A stretch of 64,000 nt of DNA, taken from NCBI RefSeq assembly GCF_000336755.1, contig NZ_AOLK01000012.1, positions 1-64,000 on the forward strand, in the 5' to 3' direction. Of the stretch, positions 48,613-49,380 are shown one piece after another. A program made the position numbers and the translations under genes. Source of the stretch: Haloferax elongans ATCC BAA-1513 (lineage in GTDB: Archaea; Halobacteriota; Halobacteria; Halobacteriales; Haloferacaceae). Position 1 is the first letter of the stretch; the number at the start of each line of letters is the position of its first letter. The notes below the pieces were generated by a model. That model had not been told where the DNA came from. It did not search any database and was given only the letters and a program-made list of their open reading frames with translations.

Positions 48613-48687
48613 AGCGGGATGGGATAGCCAGGAGATTCCGCCGGGCTCATAACCCGGAGATCGGTAGTTCAAATCTACCTCCCGCTA
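48613..48687 (+). tRNA. Initiator tRNA-Met (CAU)
   Basis: Full cloverleaf without intron. The acceptor AGCGGGA pairs with TCCCGCT, the D arm starts GGAT, the anticodon arm is CCGGG-CTCATAA-CCCGG, and the T arm is GGTAG-TTCAAAT-CTACC; the discriminator is A and CCA is not encoded. The A1-U72 pair and the three G-C pairs next to the anticodon loop (GGG/CCC) mark it as the initiator and not the elongator. A TATA-like CTTAACA lies about 27 nt upstream. Its 3' end is partly repeated downstream. Confidence 0.96.
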
Positions 48688-48694
48688 TGGTTTT

Positions 48695-48750
48695 GCCGAC
48701 CTCAACTCCTGAGCACCGAGTCTCGTCTCGGTGCGACCCCTGAGGTCGGC
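48695..48750. other. Double stem-loop directly after the initiator tRNA
   Basis: The outer stem GCCGACCTCA/TGAGGTCGGC is 10 bp and perfect. It encloses an inner stem GCACCGAG/CTCGGTGC of 8 bp with a TCTCGT loop. It begins 7 nt after the tRNA 3' end, behind a TTTT run. It may be a structured trailer, a small RNA or part of an integration-site remnant. Confidence 0.7.
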
Positions 48751-48762
48751 TTCATAGCACAG

Positions 48763-48805
48763 TAGATTTGAACCGGGGAGCGTCAGCGACCGGGGTTCAA
48801 ATCTA
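48763..48805. repeat. Inverted copy of the tRNA T-arm sequence
   Basis: TAGATTTGAACC at 48763-48774 is the exact reverse complement of GGTTCAAATCTA at 48794-48805, with 19 bases between. Both are versions of the T-arm of the initiator tRNA. Confidence 0.75.
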
Positions 48806-48815
48806 TCTCCCGCTA
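48796..48815 (+). repeat. Second copy of the tRNA-Met 3' end
   Basis: TTCAAATCTATCTCCCGCTA matches the last 20 bases of the tRNA gene (48668-48687) at 19 of 20 positions, 128 nt downstream and in the same orientation. This is the form left by site-specific integration into a tRNA 3' end (attL/attR-like), but no integrase gene lies between the copies. Confidence 0.8.
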
Positions 48816-48839
48816 TTCTCCTGAAAACCACACTCCCAA

Positions 48840-48861
48840 GCAGTGCGTCTTGTCGCACTGC
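48840..48861. other. Hairpin between the second and third tRNA-tail copies
   Basis: GCAGTGCG-TCTTGT-CGCACTGC is a perfect 8-bp stem with a 6-base loop, lying between the repeats at 48796 and 48896. Confidence 0.55.
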
Positions 48862-48895
48862 GACGACGTGTTTCTCTGCGAATCGTGACGAGTAG

Positions 48896-48908
48896 CAAAT
48901 CTACCTCC
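48896..48908 (+). repeat. Third, shorter copy of the tRNA-Met T-arm end
   Basis: CAAATCTACCTCC is identical to 48670-48682 inside the tRNA. It is preceded by AGTAG, as the tRNA copy is by GGTAGTT. It lies 56 nt before the Rieske gene, just upstream of that gene's TATA-like GATTTTC. Confidence 0.6.
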
Positions 48909-48963
48909 AACACCGCCGACCGTTTCCGAAGAAGATTTTCCGCACCTTACCGACCAGATACCA

Positions 48964-49380
48964 ATGAGCGACCTCGAACGAATCTGTTCGGTCGACGACG
49001 TGCCCGCGGACACGACGTTCTTGTTCCGTGTCGCGGGCGACGACGAAGACGAGCGCGAGGCGATTCTCGTTCGCACCGACGGCGACATCCGCGGCTGGCT
49101 GAACTACTGCATGCACCTGACGCACATCAAAATCGACAAGGGCTCAGGTGCGTCGATGCGCAACGGCGAACTCATCTGCGAGAACCACGGTGCGTACTTC
49201 GAAGCCGACACGGGCTACTGCAACTACGGCCCCTGCGAGGGCGCAGTTCTCGACGACCTCGATATCACCGTCGACGGCGACCACGTCTTCCTCTCTGACG
49301 ACGACTACTCGTTCGTGGGACAGGGCGGCGTCGAGAAGGACCCGGCCGACCGCAGTTCGAGTTCGAACGTCGAATTCTGA
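48964..49380 (+). CDS. Rieske-type [2Fe-2S] protein
   Basis: A 138-residue soluble protein with one Rieske cluster site: Cys49-x-His51 in NYCMHLTH and Cys72-x2-His75 in LICENHGAYF. A further CNYGPCEG loop resembles the second half of Rieske ferredoxins. It has no transmembrane helix or Tat signal, so it is likely a cytosolic ferredoxin-like electron carrier or an oxygenase component. No oxygenase is adjacent. It is convergent with pabC, with 6 nt between the stops. Partner unknown. Confidence 0.88.
   Translation: MSDLERICSVDDVPADTTFLFRVAGDDEDEREAILVRTDGDIRGWLNYCMHLTHIKIDKGSGASMRNGELICENHGAYFEADTGYCNYGPCEGAVLDDLDITVDGDHVFLSDDDYSFVGQGGVEKDPADRSSSSNVEF

Follow-up and report, generated by a model that had tools for sequence, protein, structure and literature searches.

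Integron cassette arrays with attC sites consist of repeat-bounded units in variable order, with a site that is both palindromic and strand-asymmetric. Kink-turn and k-loop RNAs carry tandem GA/GA flush on a helix and are bound by L7Ae. In Haloferax volcanii, tRNase Z processes a tRNA-like element upstream of the 5S rRNA, and t-elements of this species are processed by tRNase Z/RNase P (PMC4326828, PMC3296008). PATEs, MITEs and small mobile repeats of haloarchaea are small, non-coding, palindromic sequences that are dispersed (PMC3119063). In addition, the authors describing H. gibbonsii noted 'partial tRNAs' beside full copies (PMC7921747).

The locus described here lies in a window of 64,000 bp, the whole stretch of Haloferax elongans DNA that was analyzed. 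A tRNA-iMet(CAT) gene, flanked by a GtrA-domain gene and a Rieske-domain gene (48964-49380), is followed by copies of its own 3' tail, which are part of two units termed trailer cassettes:

48613..48687, + strand: tRNA-iMet(CAT) gene; the copied block is its last 20 nt (48668-48687), TTCAAATCTACCTCCCGCTA
48688..48815, + strand: trailer cassette A, composed of hairpin 1 and a mimic hairpin with the tail copy at its end; conserved in Haloferax
48695..48750, + strand: hairpin 1 of cassette A; outer stem 48695-48704/48741-48750, inner stem 48713-48720/48727-48734, GA/GA-flanked
48755..48774, + strand: anti-tail (5') arm of the cassette A mimic hairpin, TAGC plus GTAGATTTGAACC, complement of the tail
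48775..48794, + strand: apical part of the cassette A mimic with the shared GGGAGCG..GCGACC (tandem GA) motif
48796..48815, + strand: tail copy (19/20), 3' arm of the cassette A mimic hairpin
48816..48908, + strand: trailer cassette B, partly decayed
48840..48861, + strand: hairpin 1 of cassette B, 8-bp stem
48892..48908, + strand: remnant of the cassette B mimic, 5'-arm GTAG joined to 13 nt of tail copy, assigned by comparison with the sister genome G004

The initial annotation had described the recurrence of the iMet tail at 48796-48815 (19/20) and 48896-48908 (13/13), a 12-bp inverted copy near 48763, the nested 10+8-bp stem-loop at 48695-48750 and the 8-bp hairpin at 48840-48861 between copies two and three, and all of these elements were recovered. 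The first copy can be extended to 48795-48816 (21/22), and the inverted tail is present in two registers, at 48762-48773 and 48763-48774. With up to three mismatches, the iMet tail 20-mer occurs three times in the 3.95-Mb genome, twice at this locus and once in a second tRNA-iMet gene on another contig. Since these were the only matches and the reversed pattern gave none in the whole genome, a chance origin of the tail copies is ruled out. The unit 48688-48815 was calculated to fold into two hairpins at -62.5 kcal/mol (z = -5.6), both strands of this cassette folding almost equally well, and for 48816-48910 a z of -2.2 was obtained. A comparison with Rfam covariance models revealed no family match for the trailers in the window and at ten cassette loci, where only the tRNA itself was recognized at gathering score. 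Elsewhere in the window, a leuA-Halobacteria leader RNA (RF03001) was identified at 2921-2973 on the minus strand with 70 bits, far above the gathering score.

In 15 Haloferax genomes, the region 3' of tRNA-iMet is built from two kinds of units, A (about 128 bp) and B (about 138 bp), which correspond in the window to 48688-48815 and to the sequence from 48816 onward. The end of every full unit consists of the tail in inverted orientation, a loop rich in GC and the tail in direct orientation. Order and number of the units vary between the genomes and include A-B, B alone, B-A and A-B-A, with the reordering taking place exactly at the tails. At the place of the third copy of the window, G004 contains a longer form, GGTAGTTTGAACTCGGGAGCGACAGCGACCTTGGTTCAAATCTCCCTCC, and the partial copy in the window is the leftover of a cassette B mimic whose anti-arm was lost. 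The array may also represent a non-coding mobile element, as had been considered in the initial annotation; units have been acquired, lost and rearranged at its tail repeats. The iMet locus is hypervariable, and small, species-variable genes are located between the array and the Rieske gene (L003-L008 and others), some of them encoding short membrane-like proteins. In several Haloferax genomes, another tRNA-iMet gene of identical sequence occupies a different conserved position (G000:C7:24249-24323, which is L024; L016-L019, L023, L030). These second loci carry their own arrays of A/B units, the second copy in the genome of the window being without a tail copy. Apparent tandem tRNA-iMet genes in G003 and G011 (L015, L020, L030) coincide with single-N scaffold joins and were taken as assembly artefacts. 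Such joins within tRNA-iMet repeats (L011, L015, L030) create false tandem tRNAs in draft assemblies.

Weak matches pointed to tRNA-Ser and tRNA-Trp loci having the same layout with their own tails, and tail copying was in fact found at a wide range of tRNA genes, always with the tail of the respective gene, which is invisible from the window alone. A tail copy was scored if at least 16 of 20 positions matched the last 20 nt of the tRNA itself within 300 bp downstream of the gene. The regions downstream of all 50 tRNA genes found in H. elongans were read, and 23 of the 45 testable genes possess an own-tail copy, whereas tails of other tRNAs were detected in these regions at the same level in 0 of 1918 cases. 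The corresponding counts were 18/40 in another Haloferax and 10/33, 12/34 and 8/33 in three further genera. Altogether, 71 of 185 tRNA genes in five haloarchaeal genomes from four genera have such a copy compared to 9 of 5744 swapped-tail controls, the tRNA sets of the other four genomes being large but incomplete samples. In non-halophilic relatives from other classes of the phylum, no own-tail copy was present at 46 tRNA genes. Among 392 haloarchaeal genomes, 72, belonging to 23 of 86 genera, contain one form of the apical sequence, GGATTTGAAYCNGGGAGCG (reversed control: 0). A search of 84,980 prokaryote species for this form combined with its partner half gave 43 stretches, every one from a haloarchaeal record, and no match was obtained in the viral contigs searched. 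41 of the 46 matches to the combined sequence are located at most 600 bp behind a tRNA gene and three more are cut off at the edge of the locus. The trailer pattern appears to be restricted to haloarchaea.

Read in the sense of the tRNA, a cassette starts with hairpin 1, which often has tandem GA/GA beside a stem and is then kink-turn-like, and continues with the mimic hairpin formed by the inverted tail, a GA/GA apex and the direct tail copy. Each unit thereby ends in an imperfect palindromic site. When tRNA and copy were aligned at the discriminator base, agreement was 79-100% at positions -20 to 0 and fell to 24% at -22 and 46% at +1; identity inside the block is conditioned by the 20-nt search, whereas the drop outside is unconditioned. 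The copied block is the sequence from the T-loop to the mature 3' end, i.e., the discriminator base. The anti-arm pairs chiefly with the T-loop and the T-stem strand, well above the control. Pairing of the acceptor strand within the mimic was no higher than in the shuffled control, which weakens the idea that the mimic is a substrate of tRNase Z. Retro-insertion of a mature tRNA was rejected as the origin of the copies, as they are not followed by CCA. The trailers of tRNA-Gly, -Arg and -Ala (L041, L048, L051) contain stacked extra palindromes carrying the acceptor 3' strand only, each around its own GC-rich hairpin. The loop GAGCGAAGCGA recurs in tRNA trailers of several genera (e.g., L039, L052), but the forward strand of the window lacks it; it contains GCGAAGC, which forms an exceptionally stable mini-hairpin in DNA.

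A duplicated tRNA 3' part is the typical signature of proviruses and plasmids integrating into tRNA genes, and the partial tRNAs of H. gibbonsii were reported in the context of such elements (PMC7921747). The initial annotation had suggested that the iMet array consists of att remnants from successive integrations, a view that did not hold when four integrated elements at other tRNA genes were inspected. In the genome of the window, an integrase-bearing element of about 12 kb at tRNA-Ala(cgc) was the only informative one among the integrases near tRNAs. Its attR repeats the last 13 nt only, and behind it lies a displaced acceptor-only cassette. Two further elements, about 9.8 kb long in G009 and about 7.8 kb in G010, occupy tRNA-Leu(tag), and their att identity begins in the anticodon loop. 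In the former genome, the cassette displaced to a position after attR keeps the old tail, while the element supplied the tRNA with a different one. In Halobellus, the attR-like tail of tRNA-Arg has a tyrosine recombinase next to it, and the cassette is again found beyond this tail. In three of the four elements the cassette is thus located outside, after attR, and none of the four has an anti-tail hairpin at its att sites. Their identity covers either the last 13 nt or the part from the anticodon loop to the 3' end, whereas cassettes extend from the T-loop to the discriminator and share one architecture. Because the att boundaries of the elements differ and the elements sit between the tRNA and the old trailer, the copies are not ordinary att scars. 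At the iMet locus of the 15 Haloferax genomes, no integrase-bearing element was seen between the copies. An origin from ordinary tRNA-integrating proviruses or plasmids is largely refuted and very improbable.

Several features of the cassettes argue for a selected structure. In 64 of 80 cassettes, the strand in tRNA sense gives the better fold of the two (p = 9e-7), and the same bias is found in tRNA genes and is missing in the flanks. Hairpin 1, which is no tail copy, has a mean folding z of -1.8 compared to -0.06 in controls. In unit A, it shows compensatory changes at four pairs and a covariation of 0.159, a value reached by none of 500 shuffles, and its non-Watson-Crick pairs, counted by hand from alignment tables, comprise 9 G-U versus 2 A-C on the sense strand. 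Among 74 hairpin-1 regions, tandem GA lying flush on a stem was found in 33 in sense and in 4 in antisense direction, with a shuffled mean of 7.5. Where the copy differs from the tRNA, the anti-arm sides with the copy by 28 to 7; this count is restricted to interior positions, since the alignment was anchored on the copy, which favours the copy and biases counts at the edges. An action of the anti-arm as antisense to the tRNA itself is disfavoured, as it follows the copy. The asymmetry of G-T versus A-C in anti-tail stems (22 vs. 15) and the depletion of T4 within cassettes relative to shuffles were non-significant. Runs of T, which are known to signal termination in Haloferax (PMC7237163), are more frequent than expected behind the copy (21 vs. 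8.5) and are also enriched behind the tRNA. Taken together, the evidence is strong for a selected structure and only moderate for an RNA, because folding of single-stranded DNA would share some of these marks.

The cassettes show a rapid turnover. Of the orthologous loci compared between two Haloferax species, 15 have a cassette in both, 11 in a single species and 9 in neither, and the trailer sequences diverge much faster than the upstream flanks. Tandem amplification is exemplified by four 87-bp units after tRNA-Leu(caa) (L096). Turnover, this amplification and the reordering precisely at tails would be expected for functionless palindromes that arose by template switching or fold-back copying at the tRNA 3' end and were then multiplied by slippage and tail recombination. 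Such neutral amplification, however, does not fit the apical sequence common to different tRNAs and genera, the compensatory changes in hairpin 1, itself no tail copy, the strand-specific GA/GA motifs and the occurrence in haloarchaea only, and we consider it unlikely. Alternatively, the trailers might be an integron-like or satellite array with the T-loop as recombination site, an attC-like hairpin of anti-tail, loop and tail, a tail that restores the tRNA and a tyrosine recombinase supplied in trans. The tail-bounded, reordered units, the palindromic and strand-asymmetric site and the identity that begins abruptly at the T-loop and stops at the tRNA 3' end agree with this proposal, but units of 87-140 bp would be very small circles, neither a gene-carrying cassette nor a dedicated recombinase was found (generic tyrosine recombinases only), and the covariation of hairpin 1 would be unneeded. 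Changes in order are explained by homologous recombination between tails, and this recombination suffices for the gain, loss and reordering of units in general; a dedicated recombinase behind the turnover is possible and none was seen. We regard an integron-like array as improbable.

The trailers are best explained as host-encoded structured 3' trailers that mimic the 3' end of their tRNA and work as RNA. We infer this function with a probability of slightly below one half (about 0.48). Among the three options of the initial annotation, a structured trailer RNA is the one best supported, namely by covariation, strand-specific folding and the GA/GA motifs. Architecture, own-tRNA specificity, class-wide distribution and sharp boundaries are established here, as are structural covariation, sense-strand bias and independence from the integrated elements examined. 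The cassette would be transcribed as a continuation of the pre-tRNA, and the copy of the T-loop-to-discriminator block would pair with its local complement over the GA/GA apex. The trailer might then function at the RNA level, most likely in the handling of the transcript's 3' end, by putative binding of L7Ae and/or tRNase Z and subsequent release of a trailer RNA of about 100-130 nt with a tRNA-like 3' end, while the tail repeats would permit duplication, deletion and reordering of units by recombination. That L7Ae or tRNase Z are the partners is a guess and rather doubtful. Against an action as RNA speak the cassette turnover between species and the near-equal strand folding of the window cassette; furthermore, T-runs directly 3' of the tRNA in some trailers could end transcripts ahead of the cassette. 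It is a tentative proposal that the trailers form a new class of self-mimicking RNAs, which putatively recruit tRNA-processing or kink-turn-binding proteins and either control tRNA maturation or are processed small RNAs. Should the trailers work as RNA, a hidden second module, so far recorded as tRNA remnants or intergenic sequence, would belong to many tRNA genes of haloarchaea, and a new layer of tRNA 3' maturation could be tested in the tractable model H. volcanii. If the action at the DNA level is true, tRNA genes harbor a gene-less cassette system. For annotation, a tail copy adjoining a tRNA is by itself no evidence of a provirus.

In the open-access literature, we found no paper that reports the inverted arm, the hairpins, the matching of each copy to its own tRNA or the extent across the class, and the architecture is provisionally regarded as undescribed. 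The t-elements come from the same genus and, like the proposed trailer RNAs, are non-coding structures that resemble part of a tRNA and adjoin a stable-RNA gene. The described one, however, lies upstream of 5S rRNA, whereas the trailers follow tRNA genes, copy the tail of that very tRNA and add anti-tail and GA/GA hairpins. Further tRNA-like elements were reportedly predicted in H. volcanii by Hoelzle et al. in 2012, with no cleavage of those tested. With kink-turn and k-loop RNAs the trailers share the sense-enriched tandem GA/GA flush on a helix, the comparison covering these pairs and the adjoining stem. Like PATEs and MITEs, they are small, non-coding, palindromic and haloarchaeal, but instead of being dispersed they sit behind tRNA genes and have tRNA-specific arms. 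As in integron arrays, the units are bounded by a recombination-sized repeat, have a palindromic, strand-asymmetric site and vary in order; they differ by being gene-less, 87-140 bp long and attached at a tRNA, with no dedicated integrase found. Partial tRNAs or att remnants (PMC7921747, PMC8371274) are similar in that a repeat of the tRNA 3' part lies downstream of the intact gene. In contrast to these, the trailers have an inverted arm, two hairpins and a fixed T-loop-to-discriminator block with no element in between, and the boundaries of real att sites are different.
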